Below are positions 1 through 15,166 of a stretch of 64,000 nucleotides of DNA, piece after piece. Within the stretch, counting starts at the first letter, position 1. The number at the start of each line of letters is the position of its first letter. Under the pieces are notes generated by a model, which was not told where the DNA came from, did not search any database, and worked only from the letters and a program-made list of their open reading frames with translations. Source of the stretch: Bacillota bacterium (GTDB lineage Bacteria > Bacillota > Sulfobacillia > JAIMAT01); NCBI GenBank assembly GCA_029960955.1, contig JASBVS010000037.1, positions 1 through 64,000 of the forward strand, in the 5' to 3' direction. The position numbers and the translations under genes were made by a program.

Positions 1-723
<723 letters not shown>

Positions 724-6746: not shown

Positions 6747-8384
6747 ATGGCTCAATCCGCATTCGAAAGGGCAGGGGTGGCTACGTCGACGACGGGCAAG
6801 AGCTCCACCGCAGGGGCTACGGCGATGGCACCCTCGCAGCTCCGGCGCGAGGTGAGCGTCTGGGGCTCGTACATGTGGGGCTTCTCCGACGTGGGCGCCG
6901 ACATCTTCGCCGGCCTCGGCCTGGTGACGGTGGCGGCGCAGGGGGCGGCGCCCATTGCCTTCGCGCTGGCGGGACTCGTCTACATCCTCATCGGGCTGGC
7001 CTATACCGAGCTCGCATCCGCCTACCCGGTGGCGGGGGGCGGGCAGTACTTCGCCACGCGCGGCCTGGGCGACCTCTGGGGATTCATCACCGGCAGCGCT
7101 CTGCTGCTCGACTACACGATCGACATCGCCCTCTTCGCCGTCTCCTCGACCGGCTACCTGAACGCGCTGATCGCCTTCTTCAGCGGCGTCGACCTGACGG
7201 CGGTCAAGGTGCCCTTCCTGGGCCTCCACGTCCAGGTGATCTGGCTCCTCGAGGCGCTCGCTCTCATCGTCGCCCTGATGTGGATCAACATCCGGGGCAT
7301 GCGCGAGTCGAACCTGTTCAACCAGGTGGTCGGCGTCGCGACGATGGTCATCAAGATGGTCATCCTTCTGCTCGGCTTCGTCACCGTCTGGTCGCCCGGG
7401 CTCTTCGGCCTCCAGCTCGTCCATCAGATGCCTTCGCTGAACCAGTTCATGTACGGCTCCTCGCTGGCGATCATCTCCTTCGTGGGGCTGGAGTCGATCT
7501 CGCAGGCCGCCCAGGAGACGCGCCACCCGTCGCGGATCCTCCCGCGCAGCACGCTCACCCTCATCTTCACGATCTTCATCACCAGCATCGCCTACGCCGT
7601 CCTGGCCAACGGCACCCTGCCCTGGCACGCCTTCGCCGGGCACGAGCAGGACTCGGTCACGCTCCTGGCGCGCCGGATGCCCTTCATCGGCACCATCGCC
7701 GCGCCCCTGACGGCGGCCATGGGGACGGCCATCCTGGCCATATCGGCCAACTCGGGCGTGATGAGCGTCTCCCGGCTCACCTACTCGATGAGCCACCACC
7801 ACCTGCTCTCGGGCTGGTTCGACTACGTCGACCCGCGCCGCTTCACCCCGGCGCGGACCATCCTCTTCTTCTCCGGCATCGGCCTCGTCTGGACGCTCGT
7901 CGCCTTCGCCACGCCGAGCGTCATGGACACGCTGGGCAACATGTACGCCTTCGGCGCCACGCTGGGGTACGTGGTCGTCTTCCTGGCGCTGGTCGCGCTG
8001 CGCAGGAAGGAGCCGGAGGTTCCGCGCCCCTTCCTCGTCCCCGTCAACCTCCGGCTGAGGAACCGGGAGGGGCGCACCTACCTCTTCCCGGTGCTGGGCG
8101 CCGTCGGCTTCGTGGGCGTGCTGGTCGTCCTCTTCGAGGTGCTCTACACCCACGCCGTCGGCCGGATCTTCGGCCCGGTCTGGGTGCTGGGCTGGCTCGC
8201 CTACTTCGCCTACTACCGGAAACGGTCGGGGCTGGGGCTGCGTACGCTGCCGCGGGACTGGGTGAAGGAACAGAAGGAGATCCTCGCCTCCGCCGAGGAG
8301 TACCAGATGCTGGCCCAGTACGAGCAGGCCGTGGCCGTGGCGGCCAACGGCCGCCTGGAGCAAGCGGAGGGCGCCGAGAGATGA
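6747..8384 (+). CDS. APC-superfamily permease (amino acid or KimA-like potassium uptake)
   Basis: An integral membrane transporter of about 545 residues with around 12 hydrophobic segments. APC-family hallmarks are ELASAYPVAGGGQYFATRG, GSALLLDYTIDIALF and GLESISQAAQETRHPSRILP. By hand alignment these match the transmembrane core of the Bacillus potassium importer KimA, including Asp in FSDVGAD, the DY pair and the Glu in GLES. The same motifs occur in amino acid permeases, so the substrate is open. It overlaps the next gene by 4 bp (ATGA), a membrane-anchored Usp-like protein, and two TrkA-N genes follow. The start is uncertain: ATG 6699, 6747 and 6825 are in frame, the last behind AGGGG. Confidence 0.8.
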   Translation: MAQSAFERAGVATSTTGKSSTAGATAMAPSQLRREVSVWGSYMWGFSDVGADIFAGLGLVTVAAQGAAPIAFALAGLVYILIGLAYTELASAYPVAGGGQYFATRGLGDLWGFITGSALLLDYTIDIALFAVSSTGYLNALIAFFSGVDLTAVKVPFLGLHVQVIWLLEALALIVALMWINIRGMRESNLFNQVVGVATMVIKMVILLLGFVTVWSPGLFGLQLVHQMPSLNQFMYGSSLAIISFVGLESISQAAQETRHPSRILPRSTLTLIFTIFITSIAYAVLANGTLPWHAFAGHEQDSVTLLARRMPFIGTIAAPLTAAMGTAILAISANSGVMSVSRLTYSMSHHHLLSGWFDYVDPRRFTPARTILFFSGIGLVWTLVAFATPSVMDTLGNMYAFGATLGYVVVFLALVALRRKEPEVPRPFLVPVNLRLRNREGRTYLFPVLGAVGFVGVLVVLFEVLYTHAVGRIFGPVWVLGWLAYFAYYRKRSGLGLRTLPRDWVKEQKEILASAEEYQMLAQYEQAVAVAANGRLEQAEGAER

Positions 8385-8980
8385 GCTTCCTCGAGGAGCA
8401 CCTGGCCGGCATCCTGATCGCCCTCGCCATCGGCCTCCTGACCACCCTCAACTTCGTCTGGATGAGCCGGGTGCCCAGGCCGATCCCGCGCGCGCTGGCG
8501 GAGGCGGAGGGCCGCGTGGGAGGAAGCCGCCGCATCGTGGTCTTCCTCGATCCGTACCGGCCCGAGCCCAGCGCCGTCGCCGTCGCCCACCGCCTGGCCG
8601 CCGCCACGGAGGCCGAGATCGTCCTGGCCGCGCTGGTCCGCATCCCTTTCACCCGCTCGCTCAGCGTCCCCCCCGCCCAGCAGGAGACGATCGAGCGCGG
8701 GCTGCTGGCCGAGCTGGCCGAGGGGCTCCGCTCCCTGGAGCTGCGGCCGGCCACCCGGGTGGTCCCCTCGCGCCAGTACTGGGACGGGGCGAAAGAGTTC
8801 GCCCGGCGGCTGGGCGCCGACATCGCCGTCATCGGCGTGGGCGAGGAGTCGGCCTTCGAGCGGGGCGAGGTGCTGGAAGGTCTCCTGCGGGAGTTGCCCC
8901 TCGTGGGATGCGAAGTTATCATCATTCGGCCGCGGGCAACCGAGCGGTCGCGGGAGCAGCAGGAGGCGGAGGTGCTCTGA
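8381..8980 (+). CDS. Membrane-anchored universal stress protein-like domain protein
   Basis: A 199-residue protein with one N-terminal membrane helix (residues about 9-28, AGILIALAIGLLTTLNFVW). A cytosolic Usp-like alpha/beta domain runs from about residue 48 (RRIVVFLDPY) to VGCEVIIIRPR. Its start overlaps the permease stop (ATGA), so the two are translationally coupled and the protein probably sits on the transporter. In KimA a comparable cytosolic domain is part of the transporter chain. A split version of that layout is my inference. I do not see a clear ATP-binding GXXXG pattern. Confidence 0.75.
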   Translation: MSFLEEHLAGILIALAIGLLTTLNFVWMSRVPRPIPRALAEAEGRVGGSRRIVVFLDPYRPEPSAVAVAHRLAAATEAEIVLAALVRIPFTRSLSVPPAQQETIERGLLAELAEGLRSLELRPATRVVPSRQYWDGAKEFARRLGADIAVIGVGEESAFERGEVLEGLLRELPLVGCEVIIIRPRATERSREQQEAEVL

Positions 8981-8984
8981 GCTC

Positions 8985-9416
8985 ATGCGGATCGTCGTCG
9001 TCGGATGCGGGCGGATCGGCCGGCGCCTGGCGCGCGCCTTCGCGGAGCGCGGCGACGAGGTGACCGTCGTCGACCGCCGGACCGCGTCGCTGGACCAGCT
9101 GGCCGAGCTGCCCGGCGTCCACGTGGTGGCGGGGCTGGGCTTCGATCGCGACGTGCTGCGCAAGGCCGGCGCCGCCGAGGCCGACCTGCTTCTGGCCGCC
9201 ACCGAGAACGACAACGCCAACCTGATGATCGCCGACGTGGCGCATCTCCTCCTCGGCACCCGTCGCGTGGTCCTGATCGTCAACGACGCCGAGGGCAGCG
9301 AGGTCTACCAGCGTTTCGGCTACGACGTGATCGTCCCGGTCGAGCTGGGGGTCCAGAAGGCGCTGCTCTGCGCCGGTCGGGACGGCGGCGCCGAGCGCGA
9401 CTCCGAAGCGCATTGA
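8985..9416 (+). CDS. TrkA-N (RCK N-domain) nucleotide-binding protein, first copy
   Basis: A 143-residue Rossmann-fold protein with the dinucleotide motif VVVGCGRIGRRLA at the very N-terminus and acidic VVDRR after beta-2, as in TrkA/KtrA proteins that gate potassium channels and transporters through NAD(H) or adenine nucleotides. No TrkA-C domain follows. It starts 4 bp after the Usp-like gene and is followed 12 bp later by a second TrkA-N gene. Together they most likely form a regulatory ring for the upstream permease. Confidence 0.85.
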   Translation: MRIVVVGCGRIGRRLARAFAERGDEVTVVDRRTASLDQLAELPGVHVVAGLGFDRDVLRKAGAAEADLLLAATENDNANLMIADVAHLLLGTRRVVLIVNDAEGSEVYQRFGYDVIVPVELGVQKALLCAGRDGGAERDSEAH

Positions 9417-9428
9417 GGGGGCGGCCTC

Positions 9429-9830
9429 ATGTACCTGCTGGTGGTGGGCGGCGGCAAGGTGGGTTTCGCGCTGGCCCGTGACCTGATCCAGAACGGCCAC
9501 GAGGTGACGCTGATCGAGAGGCAGCCCGAGCGCGCCCAGTGGCTGGCGCGGCTGCTGGGCGGCGCGGTGCTGGTGGGCGACGGCACCAACCCGGAGACGC
9601 TCCGCGAGGGCGGCATTGAGCGGGCCGACGTGGTCATCGCGGTCAGCGGCCACGACGAGGACAACTACGCCATCTCGCGGATCGCCACCGCCTTCAAGAC
9701 GGGCACCCACGTCATCGCCCGGATCAACGACCCGCGCAACGAGGAGATCTTCCGCCGCATCGGCGTGCGGACGGTCAGCTCGACGCGGACCATCGCCGAG
9801 ATGATCGAGGAGAGCGTGCCGCAGCCCTGA
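9429..9830 (+). CDS. TrkA-N (RCK N-domain) nucleotide-binding protein, second copy
   Basis: A 133-residue TrkA-N protein with LLVVGGGKVGFALARDL at the N-terminus, LIERQPERAQWLARLLGG after beta-2 and VIARINDPRNEEIFRRIGV. It is similar to but clearly diverged from the preceding TrkA-N protein, so the pair could form a heteromer. It lacks a TrkA-C ligand domain. It is the last gene of the permease-Usp-TrkA-N-TrkA-N unit and is convergent with the DUF503 gene. Confidence 0.87.
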   Translation: MYLLVVGGGKVGFALARDLIQNGHEVTLIERQPERAQWLARLLGGAVLVGDGTNPETLREGGIERADVVIAVSGHDEDNYAISRIATAFKTGTHVIARINDPRNEEIFRRIGVRTVSSTRTIAEMIEESVPQP

Positions 9831-11803: not shown

Positions 11804-12605
11804 CGGCCTGCCCCCCTCCCGCCGGCGCCGCCCGGCCGCCGGCCAGCACCTCCTCCAGAAAGCTTCGCACCGCCCGCCGGAACTCCCCCGCGCGCTCGAG
11901 ATGGAGCAGGTGGCCGCTGCCCGGCCCGCGGAAGAAGAGCCGGCGCGCACCCGGCAGGCCGTCCGCCAGCTGCCGGCTGTAGCGGGCGGGAATCATGCGG
12001 TCCTGCTCGCCGGCCACCACCAGCACGGGGACCGGCGGCAGCGCTCCCGGCTCCACCGCTCCGGGCTCCAGCTCCAGGTAGGCCAGGAGCGCCTCGCGCG
12101 GCGGTCCCAGCGGAGGCCGCCAGGCCGCGGCCAGGCGTTCCAGCCGCTCCTCGTCTTCGGCCAGCTCGCGCGAACCGAGGAACCAGGCGAGCACGCGCGC
12201 GTAGACGGGCTCGGGCGCCCAGCGGACCATCTCGGTCACCGCCCGCCGCCGCTCCCGCAGGTCGCCGTCCTCGGCCAGCCAGGGGTGGACCAGCACCATC
12301 GCCGCCAGCCGGCCGGCCGCGCGGGCGGCCAGCGAGAGCGCCGCGCGGCTGCCCAGGCTGAGGCCGACCAGGACCAGCGGACCCTCGCCCGCCTCCTCCA
12401 GGAGCGGGGCGTAGGCGGAGAGGAGCTGCTCCCAGGTCGCCGGCGGCGGTCCGGGGCTGCGGCCGGTCCCGGGCGGGTCGGGCGCCAGGACGCGCCAGGT
12501 GCGGCCCCAGTCGGCCGTCTCCGCCCCCCAGGAGCGGTGGTCGGCACCCGCCCCGGGGAGCAGAAGGAGCGCGGGGCTCCCCGGCGGCGCGCCGGCGGGC
12601 TCCAC
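11787..12605 (-). CDS. Alpha/beta hydrolase
   Basis: A roughly 272-residue alpha/beta-hydrolase-fold protein. It shows the oxyanion region LLLLPGAGADHRSWG, DPPGTGRSPGP, the nucleophile elbow VGLSLGSRAAL with Ser in GLSLG, the acid region VVAGEQDRMIP and a late His in GSGHLLHLE. This forms a plausible Ser-Asp-His triad. Substrate is unknown; esterase, lactonase and thioesterase members all look alike. The start is uncertain; I used GTG 12605, and a TTG lies further upstream. It is transcribed away from cydA. Confidence 0.75.
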   Translation of the reverse strand: MEPAGAPPGSPALLLLPGAGADHRSWGAETADWGRTWRVLAPDPPGTGRSPGPPPATWEQLLSAYAPLLEEAGEGPLVLVGLSLGSRAALSLAARAAGRLAAMVLVHPWLAEDGDLRERRRAVTEMVRWAPEPVYARVLAWFLGSRELAEDEERLERLAAAWRPPLGPPREALLAYLELEPGAVEPGALPPVPVLVVAGEQDRMIPARYSRQLADGLPGARRLFFRGPGSGHLLHLERAGEFRRAVRSFLEEVLAGGRAAPAGGGQAGGGER

Positions 12606-12676
12606 CTTCTGGACGTGGAGCCGGGATGGGGAAGCTTCCTGTGAAGGCGATGGCAAGCCTCGCGCCTCCCGTGGCG

Positions 12677-12699
12677 GGACGGCTTCCCGGGAGCCGTCC
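12677..12699. repeat. Perfect inverted repeat in the hydrolase-cydA divergent region
   Basis: GGACGGCT and AGCCGTCC flank a 7-base spacer in the 187-bp gap between the divergent hydrolase and cydA genes. It could be an operator or an RNA hairpin in either transcript. I see no convincing promoter next to it, so its role is open. Confidence 0.35.
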
Positions 12700-12792
12700 G
12701 CGGTCCCAGCCTTCCAGTGTAGCGGCCGGGGCGCGCCGCGGAAGCGCGCTCGCCGGATCGCGGGGAAGACTAGCCCGCGGGAGGCGAGGCCG

Positions 12793-14148
12793 CTGAGCGA
12801 CCTTCTCGCCGCGCGTTGGCAGATGGGCATCTCCCTCGGCTGGCACATGCTCTTCGCCGCCTTCGGCGTCACGCTCCCGCTCCTCATGGTGCTCGCCGAG
12901 GGGGTGGGCCTCCTGCGCCGTTCGCCGCTCCACCTGGAGCTCGCCCGCCGCTGGTCGGGGGCGGCGGCCGTCCTCTTCGCCATCGGAGCGGTCAGCGGCA
13001 CGGCGCTCTCCTTCGAGCTGGGCCTCCTCTGGCCGCGCCTGATGGGCCTGGCCGGGCCGGTCCTGGGCATGGCCTTCTTCCTCGAAGGTTTCGCCTTCTT
13101 CGTCGAGGCCATCTTCCTCGGGCTCTACCTGTACGGTTGGGAGCGGCTGCCGGCGTGGGGCCACTGGTTGAGCGGCCTGCTCGTGGCGGTGGCGGGCTCC
13201 GCCTCCAGCGTGCTGGTGACGGGCGCCAACGCCTGGATGCAGCTCCCCCGGGAAGGGCTCGGCGCCCTTCGCGATCCCCTGCGCGCGGTCCTGGGCAACC
13301 CCGTCTGGCCGCCCATGGCGCTGCACGGCACGCTGGCCGCCTGGACGGCCGCCGCCTTCGCCGTGGCCGGGGGCGAGGCCTGGTCGCTCCTCCGCCGTCC
13401 GGACGAGGCGCGCCGCGCCCGACACCTGGCCGGCCTGCGGCTGGCCATGCTGGTCGCGCTGGTCGGCGCGCTGGCCATGCCGCTCTCGGGCGACGCCAGC
13501 GCACGCACGGTGGCCGCCCGCGAGCCGGTCAAGCTGGCCGCCATGGAGGGGCAGTTCGCCAGCCAGGCGGGGGCGCCGTTGCGCATCGGCGGCATCCCGG
13601 ACGTCGCCCGCCGCACGGTCGACTGGGCGCTGGAGATCCCGCGCGGGCTGAGCTGGCTCGCCTTTCGAAGGCCGGGGGCGATCGTGCGCGGTCTCGAGGC
13701 CGTGCCGCCGTCGCTCTGGCCGAACGTCACCGCCACCCACCTGGGTTTCCAGATCATGGTGGGCAGCAGCCTGCCGCTGCTCGCGGCCGCCCTGCTCTAC
13801 GCCTTCCACGCGGGGCAGAGCCGGCCGCCGCGCTGGCTCCTCCGCCTCCTGGTGGCCGTCTCGCCCCTGGGCTTCCTGGCGCTGGAGACCGGCTGGCTCG
13901 TCACCGAGTTCGGCCGCCAGCCCTGGGCGCTCTCCGGCCTCATGCCCACCGCCCGGGCGGTCACCCCGGCCGGCGGCCTCGCCTGGAGCCTGCTCGGCTT
14001 CGTCCTGCTCTACGCCGGGCTGACCGCCACCGTCGTCCACTTCCTCCGGCGGCTGGAGGCGGCGCCGGGCGAGGGCGACGGCGGAGACGGGGAGGCCGGG
14101 CGGCGGGAGGAAGCCTTCCCTGCGGAGGTGCTCGACCATGCCCCCTGA
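12793..14148 (+). CDS. cydA: Cytochrome bd ubiquinol/menaquinol oxidase subunit I
   Basis: Membrane subunit of the bd-type terminal oxidase, which oxidises quinol and reduces oxygen with high affinity. The protein starts SDLLAARWQMGISLGWHMLF, with the conserved His of the first helix, and has ANAWMQLP, ALHGTLAAW, HLGFQIMVGSS and EFGRQPWALSG. At about 451 residues it is the short Q-loop type. The only start at the family position is CTG 12793, preceded by GGGAGG with 8-base spacing; no ATG, GTG or TTG lies nearby in frame. cydB follows with an 11-bp overlap. Confidence 0.92.
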   Translation: MSDLLAARWQMGISLGWHMLFAAFGVTLPLLMVLAEGVGLLRRSPLHLELARRWSGAAAVLFAIGAVSGTALSFELGLLWPRLMGLAGPVLGMAFFLEGFAFFVEAIFLGLYLYGWERLPAWGHWLSGLLVAVAGSASSVLVTGANAWMQLPREGLGALRDPLRAVLGNPVWPPMALHGTLAAWTAAAFAVAGGEAWSLLRRPDEARRARHLAGLRLAMLVALVGALAMPLSGDASARTVAAREPVKLAAMEGQFASQAGAPLRIGGIPDVARRTVDWALEIPRGLSWLAFRRPGAIVRGLEAVPPSLWPNVTATHLGFQIMVGSSLPLLAAALLYAFHAGQSRPPRWLLRLLVAVSPLGFLALETGWLVTEFGRQPWALSGLMPTARAVTPAGGLAWSLLGFVLLYAGLTATVVHFLRRLEAAPGEGDGGDGEAGRREEAFPAEVLDHAP

Positions 14149-15166
14149 GCCCGCCGCTCCCCTTCCACTCCCGGCCGCCGGCGCGGGGGGAGCGGTACGG
14201 GCGGCCGCGCTGCTCCTGGCGGTGGTGCTCGGCGTCTACGCCCTCTTCGGCCTGGCCGACTTCGGCGCCGGCCTCTGGGACCTGACGGCGCGCGGCGACC
14301 GGGCGCAGGCCGTGCGGCAGGCGGTGGCCCGCGGCATGGGCCCGGTCTGGGAGGCCAACCACGTCTGGCTGATCTTCGCGCTGGTCCTCCTCTTCACGGC
14401 CTTCCCCGCCGCCTTCGCCCGCCTGGGGACGGCGCTCTTCGTCCCGCTCCACCTGGCGCTGGGCGGCATCATCCTGCGCGGCGCGGCCTTCGTCTTCCGC
14501 GCCCACGGGCGCCAGGCGAGCCGGGCGGCCGGCCCCGCGCCGGACCGCTGGGGCGCCGTCTTCGGCGCGGGCAGCCTGGTCGCGCCCTTCTTCCTCGGCC
14601 TCTCCCTGGCGGCCACGGCGCAGCCGGGACTCGCCTGGTGGTCGCCCTTCGCCCTCCTGGTCGGCCTCTCGACGGTGGCGGCCGGCGCGCTGGAGGCGGC
14701 GGTCTACCTGGCGGCGGAGAACCGGGGCGAACTGCGGCGGCGCTTCCTCGCCGGGGCCGGGGCGAGCCTGGCGGCGCTGGCGCTCCTGGCCCTCCCCACC
14801 CTGGCGGTCGCCGCGACCGCCGCCCCCTGGCTCGGGCCGCGCCTCCTGCGCGGCCCCGCGCTGCCCTTCGTCCTGCTCGCCGCGGCGGCGGCCCTCCTGG
14901 ACGCGCGCGCCCTGGCGCGGGCGCTGCCGGAGGCGGCCCGCCTCTGGACGGCCGCCCTCGTCCTCCTCCTCTGGGCCGGCTGGGCCACCGCGGCCTGGCC
15001 GTGGCTCGTCTCCGGCGAGCTGACCGCGGCGGCCGCGGCCGCTCCCGCCGCCTCGCTCCGCCAGGTTCTGCTGCTCCTGCCCTGGGGCCTCCTCCTGCTC
15101 GTGCCGGCGCTGGGCCTCCTCTTCGCCGTCTTCAAGGGCCGCAACCCGGCGGTCGGCCCGGAGTGA
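14138..15166 (+). CDS. cydB: Cytochrome bd oxidase subunit II
   Basis: Second membrane subunit of the bd oxidase, 342 residues. YALFGLADFGAGLWDLTA and GPVWEANHVWLIFALVLLF are the standard CydB blocks, with Trp-Glu-Ala-Asn-His-Val-Trp near residue 70, and about eight hydrophobic helices follow. ATG 14138 lies inside the end of cydA, so the two are translationally coupled. No cydCD or cydX-like gene is seen here. Expression probably responds to oxygen, but no Rex or ResD site is evident. Confidence 0.95.
   Translation: MPPEPAAPLPLPAAGAGGAVRAAALLLAVVLGVYALFGLADFGAGLWDLTARGDRAQAVRQAVARGMGPVWEANHVWLIFALVLLFTAFPAAFARLGTALFVPLHLALGGIILRGAAFVFRAHGRQASRAAGPAPDRWGAVFGAGSLVAPFFLGLSLAATAQPGLAWWSPFALLVGLSTVAAGALEAAVYLAAENRGELRRRFLAGAGASLAALALLALPTLAVAATAAPWLGPRLLRGPALPFVLLAAAAALLDARALARALPEAARLWTAALVLLLWAGWATAAWPWLVSGELTAAAAAAPAASLRQVLLLLPWGLLLLVPALGLLFAVFKGRNPAVGPE

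Follow-up and report, generated by a model that had tools for sequence, protein, structure and literature searches.

A predicted K+ uptake operon combining an APC-fold carrier with a pair of RCK proteins

We describe a four-gene operon that, in our judgement, fairly probably encodes a K+ uptake complex, predicted to consist of an APC-fold carrier and a ring of RCK subunits. It lies in a stretch of 64,000 nucleotides from a Bacillota bacterium (contig JASBVS010000037.1, positions 1 to 64,000), the whole of which is called the window here. The operon is probably a K+ uptake system of bacteria that seemingly lack the known ones; our searches of open-licence PMC papers found no account of it.

Results

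Organisation of the operon

The four genes run head to tail on the + strand. The first (6747–8384) encodes a 545-residue permease of the APC fold with 12 transmembrane (TM) helices, the candidate K+ carrier (Pfam AA_permease_2, 120.5 bits). It is followed by a gene for a 199-residue Usp-like protein with one N-terminal TM helix (8381–8980; Pfam Usp, 26.9 bits) and by two short genes. RCK1 (8985–9416; 143 aa; TrkA_N, 91.9 bits) has a TrkA-N domain only and is the counterpart of TM1088A, and RCK2 (9429–9830; 133 aa; TrkA_N, 102.7 bits) has a TrkA-N domain and is the counterpart of TM1088B. An ATGA overlap joins the permease stop to the Usp start, and the next intergenic gaps are 4 bp and then 12 bp. 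ORF positions, Pfam domains and gap lengths all agree with the four-gene arrangement and the coordinates given in an earlier note on this DNA. The permease has an alternative start, the ATG at 6825; residues 1–31 have a pLDDT under 50 in the AlphaFold model. The operon flanks are unrelated, with a chlorite dismutase-family protein upstream and a DUF503 protein downstream, both on the − strand. Elsewhere in the window, 12499–15163 encodes subunits I and II of a cytochrome bd oxidase.

Conservation of the gene order

Scanning contigs from one genome per species gave 30 permease loci, with 48–58% identity in the best segment, and further loci were added by searching the window's own class. Gene order was counted in 37 of the 40 loci, L053, L054 and L069 being excluded because the contig end cuts the permease; L028 and L065 are one locus and were counted once. 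Of the 37, 27 show the full series permease, Usp, RCK1, RCK2, which marks it as a conserved unit, and the association is, for that reason, not a matter of chance. By record titles, the complete loci span at least seven phyla (Bacillota, Chloroflexi, Zixibacteria, Nitrospirae, Deltaproteobacteria, WOR-3 and Acidobacteria). The ten incomplete loci comprise four in which the contig runs out (L026, L027, L042, L043), two with Usp present but without RCK genes (L050, L064), and four in which the permease is alone, with no partner genes downstream (L044, L045, L066, L067); the last four count against a joint complex. RCK1 and RCK2 are fused into one protein in L047, L048, L049 and L055, the L048 fusion having the domain order TrkA_N-TrkA_N-TrkA_C.

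Two loci from Zixibacteria (L032:5853–9116 and L035:4151–7539) have two tandem permease genes and then a single Usp-RCK1-RCK2 set, with a riboswitch before the first permease copy. At the locus of Moorella thermoacetica DSM 21394 (L051:5977–7190) the permease frame is broken and its middle stretch is absent from both pieces, which reflects either a disrupted gene or an assembly error; the riboswitch, Usp and both RCK genes are still present there.

The Usp assignment of the window copy is marginal, its score lying little above the PF00582 gathering cut-off of 24 bits, and the Usp proteins of two relatives score 64.9 and 79.5 bits. An N-terminal membrane segment is common to the whole Usp family of these loci. 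Between permease and Usp, 28 of the 37 loci carry a gene for a small protein with two hydrophobic stretches (e.g. L040:6983–7183), which is 63–84 aa long where a start was called and often overlaps the permease stop; the two copies scanned had no Pfam match. This protein is probably a conserved fifth subunit of the unit, a putative two-helix membrane protein. It is missing in the window and in two congeners, where the permease overlaps Usp directly. Because both the small protein and the TrkA-C domain of RCK2 are missing in the window's genus, the window seems to hold a pared-down form of what is elsewhere a five-gene unit.

The RCK pair

RCK1 of the window matched TM1088A (3l4b_A) with an E value of 7.6e-13, and RCK2 of a relative (L034) matched TM1088B (3l4b_C) with an E value of 7.3e-29. 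Both also matched TrkA, and Kef-type RCK proteins were among the weaker matches of RCK1. According to PMC4380455, TM1088A and TM1088B of T. maritima serve the TrkH protein TM1089; their crystal structure is an octamer containing four copies of each, and AMP is bound to TM1088A. Because the pair in the operon is homologous to this solved two-subunit ring, a heteromeric RCK1/RCK2 ring, which the earlier note had proposed, can be considered well founded by homology. We infer that the ring docks on the permease.

Pfam searches found no TrkA-C domain in RCK1 or RCK2 of the window, and a TrkA-C domain on RCK2 of all three relatives scanned that have a separate RCK2. The previous statement that the pair lacks TrkA-C is therefore correct for the window's genus only and wrong for RCK2 of the relatives, while its second half, the lack of a Trk/Ktr pore, holds: neither TrkH nor KtrB was found in the window's genome, nor in two congeners. 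TrkA-type RCK subunits, a feature of Trk/Ktr systems, are present in the operon by Pfam and by homology, and RCK1 and RCK2 are the only strong TrkA_N matches in the window's genome. In the window's genus, RCK1 reads LIVNDA at a place where the stretch in most relatives includes an Arg (e.g. xRVYDP); this conserved Arg, lost in the genus, is perhaps a nucleotide contact.

Fold and phylogeny of the permease

The AlphaFold model of the permease (mean pLDDT 86.4) has the APC fold. GkApcT was the best Foldseek match (E 1.3e-16), CAT and other amino acid carriers led the list, and KimA came 34th (E 6.4e-11). VIA-align gave a Z of 39.8 for KimA (394 residues, 2.4 Å) and 39.0 for GkApcT (426 residues, 2.3 Å), a tie, and fold comparison was set aside as an arbiter between KimA and CAT. 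The nearest neighbours by sequence are GkApcT (E 4e-26) and CAT proteins (about 1e-26); the match to KimA is distant (E 0.0013), which counts against K+ as the substrate. The score against the CAT-type model TIGR00909, 188.4 bits, is below its cut-off of 556.8. In a tree of 66 rows, for which the tool warned of long branches, the 38 permeases of the module group together (89/96), and 18 KimA-like rows (100/100) and 10 other APC rows lie outside this clade. On this sequence evidence the permease is placed in a clade of its own, nearer to cationic amino acid transporters and outside the KimA family, and it should not be filed as KimA.

Unlike KimA, the permease has no C-terminal cytosolic domain: the last long helix (470–493) is followed by only two short helices up to residue 545. 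The Usp protein was considered as the detached domain of a split KimA, and this was rejected, as the Usp profile matched the C-terminal cytosolic domain of KimA with an hhalign probability of 0.05%. The earlier note had likened the operon to a split KimA; the separate clade, the CAT-type nearest neighbours and the dissimilar Usp do not bear this out. Of the two findings that together would have told against the note's transporter complex, a permease clustering with an amino acid carrier family and an unconserved gene order, the second is not seen. The surroundings of 15 KimA-like genes, in 14 loci of which several are short contigs, showed no RCK genes.

Residues of the predicted transport site

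In amino acid carriers of this fold the GxG motif of TM1 holds the amino acid carboxylate. At this position the module permeases have G-A-D in 37 of 38 cases and G-A-N in the remaining one, so that GxG is lost. D52 is kept in 37/38, and four residues are invariant in all 38: D48 (codon 6888–6890), D122 (7110–7112), E249 (7491–7493) and Y400 (7944–7946), all on the + strand. In KimA, D36, Y43, T121 and Y377 are residues of the K+ site, Y377 being the K+ gate, and E233 serves H+ coupling (PMC6994465). Profile comparison, which does not reach TM1, aligns D122-Y123 with KimA D117-Y118, E249 with E233 and Y400 with Y377. Tyr is found at position 400 in 14/18 KimA-like rows (the other four have Phe) and in 0/10 other APC rows; Y400, which the earlier note does not name, is a better shared mark than E249, since the 10 other APC rows all have Glu or Asp at 249 and never Tyr at 400.

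The alignments of TM1 disagree. By sequence, KimA Y43 stands opposite D48; two structure alignments to KimA have an offset of 12 (42..30 and 34..22) and a third (6s3k) an offset of 10. An offset of 12 would put D48 at KimA D36, a placement derived from the range ends only and in conflict with the sequence alignment. An earlier hand alignment to KimA is upheld by the profile for the DY pair (D122, Y123) and for the Glu (E249), and for the Asp in TM1 it meets this conflict. Other differences from KimA count against K+ as the substrate: T121 corresponds to Asp126 in the permease, S125 and T230 are replaced, and Y43 is not clearly kept.

A c-di-AMP riboswitch in relatives

In 9 of the 40 distinct loci scanned (L028, L031, L032, L034, L035, L036, L038, L051 and L052), an RF00379 riboswitch precedes the permease ORF by 16–150 bp, with scores of 81–98 bits against a cut-off of 38; three of the loci scanned, L029, L030 and L045, offer little sequence on the upstream side. 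The window lacks the riboswitch, which counts against K+ uptake as the function, and a search there for a degenerate copy gave only unrelated sub-threshold matches. A diadenylate cyclase domain is encoded in the window's genome. In B. subtilis, according to the accessible text of PMC7288161, the c-di-AMP riboswitch controls KimA and KtrAB and normally turns K+ importers off.

Other K+ importers in permease-bearing genomes

Among 39 distinct genomes with the permease (L028 and G036 being one genome), TrkH/KtrB was found in 10, KdpA in 7, Kup in 1 and KimA in 6. All four were absent from 23 genomes; the other 16 do have another K+ importer, which counts against K+ uptake as the function. The window's genome (93% complete), its two congeners (96%) and one further genome (G005, 96%) had none of TrkH/KtrB, KdpA, Kup, KimA and Ion_trans_2.

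A matched comparison was made within the window's class only, using 154 genomes (taken as G000–G060 and G091–G183), most of them MAGs. Both TrkH and KdpA were missing in 6 of the 19 genomes with the permease and in 9 of the 135 without it (Fisher p 0.004), a test that ignores kinship (three of the six are one genus) and covers TrkH and KdpA only. The link between the permease and missing K+ importers is moderate. A small sample (51/51) had suggested that TrkH or KdpA is always present in class genomes that lack the permease; this was rejected, the figure to use being that for the whole class, 126/135. The nine class genomes with neither TrkH, KdpA nor the permease, which weigh against the K+ uptake reading, are G094, G095, G099, G131, G159, G166, G169, G171 and G183. 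Together with the riboswitch in relatives, the missing importers in 23 of the 39 genomes support the K+-related role that had been proposed.

Discussion

A K+ uptake complex could work as follows. The permease would be a LeuT-fold carrier of the APC superfamily in which the change from GxG to G-A-D in TM1, the invariant Asp four residues earlier, and a TM10 Tyr matching the K+-gating Tyr377 of KimA have made a cation site out of an amino acid site; K+ transport would be coupled to H+. RCK1 and RCK2 are predicted to form a hetero-octameric ring like that of TM1088A/B, docking under the membrane, through which adenine nucleotides would set carrier activity, perhaps with c-di-AMP acting too in relatives with TrkA-C. 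Usp, anchored in the membrane through its helix, may aid assembly or sensing, as may the two-helix protein in relatives. In some relatives the riboswitch would cut expression at high K+.

The main alternative, which we regard as unlikely but in need of serious consideration, is a transporter of amino acids or osmolytes (e.g. glutamate, a cationic amino acid or a betaine-like compound) whose activity and expression would follow K+ or turgor, relayed by the RCK pair, by Usp and by c-di-AMP, with K+ as signal and not cargo. Amino acid carriers are indeed the closest relatives of the permease by sequence and by fold, and osmolyte transporters are also under c-di-AMP control, as far as the accessible text of PMC10284832 describes it. 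However, the loss of GxG and the positions of D48, D52 (37/38), D122 and E249 place several acidic residues near the site, which suits a cation, and an amino acid or osmolyte cargo would leave the window's genome and two congeners with no member of the five families of K+ entry proteins that were looked for.

The transporters known to work with RCK rings are channels and antiporters of the Kef/Kht type, and the RCK-controlled carriers known are mainly antiporters. This background, and the Kef-type proteins among the weaker matches of RCK1, would suit a system that exports K+, or a safety valve of the K+/H+ antiport type, with RCK proteins in control as in KefC or KhtTU. We consider such an exporter very improbable, as the KUP/KimA relatives of the same fold are uptake symporters, the c-di-AMP riboswitch normally turns off K+ importers (PMC7288161, accessible text), and the genomes without importers would be left unexplained. 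Slightly less probable again is that the RCK pair and Usp act on a different channel, unlinked or unknown, with an ordinary permease merely encoded alongside: the homology of the pair to the Trk ring and the four loci with the permease alone fit this, but the order complete in 27/37 loci from at least seven phyla, the absence of TrkH from 29 of the 39 permease genomes and the lack of an Ion_trans_2 channel in the window's genome argue against it.

The predicted K+ uptake complex resembles several known systems in part. It shares with TM1088A/TM1088B (PDB 3l4b; PMC4380455, accessible text) short TrkA-N and TrkA-N/TrkA-C proteins encoded side by side; unlike that system, with its TrkH pore TM1089, it has an APC-fold carrier as the membrane partner, plus Usp and the two-helix protein. 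With the KUP/KimA K+/H+ symporters (PMC6994465, accessible text) it has in common the LeuT/APC fold and the aligned DY, Glu and Tyr, and with kimA the c-di-AMP riboswitch (PMC7288161), here only in relatives; it differs from KimA in its separate clade, in lacking a fused cytosolic domain and in having Asp in place of Thr121. GkApcT and CAT (PDB 5oqt, 6f34) are nearest by sequence and Foldseek, yet have GxG where the permease has G-A-D, and the permease has the extra Asp 48, Tyr 400 and regulatory genes alongside. AA_permease_2 is also combined with Usp in archaea, where an amino acid permease carries two Usp domains as a fusion (PMC3673472); in our operon these are separate genes, and the accessible text of that paper mentions no RCK pair for the archaeal fusion.

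In M. tuberculosis, CeoB and CeoC are two TrkA proteins for K+ uptake, and the adjacent Rv2690c shares their transposon phenotype (PMC12216072 and PMC13163235, accessible text). This two-subunit TrkA pair beside another gene is a possible parallel to the operon. Rv2690c is a putative APC/KimA-like permease.

The chances seem to us evenly balanced that bacteria have, in addition to Trk/Ktr, Kdp, Kup and KimA, another class of K+ uptake system, represented by this operon, in which an RCK ring of two subunits operates an APC-fold carrier together with a membrane Usp and a two-helix subunit, and on which some bacteria rely as their sole K+ importer. If the K+ uptake reading is true, with a LeuT-fold carrier under the control of an RCK ring, a single nucleotide-sensing module would prove to have been adapted to transporters of unrelated mechanics. 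The finding would also make APC proteins the place to look for the membrane partner of CeoB/CeoC in mycobacteria, and would answer how bacteria that seemingly have none of the known K+ importers obtain K+.
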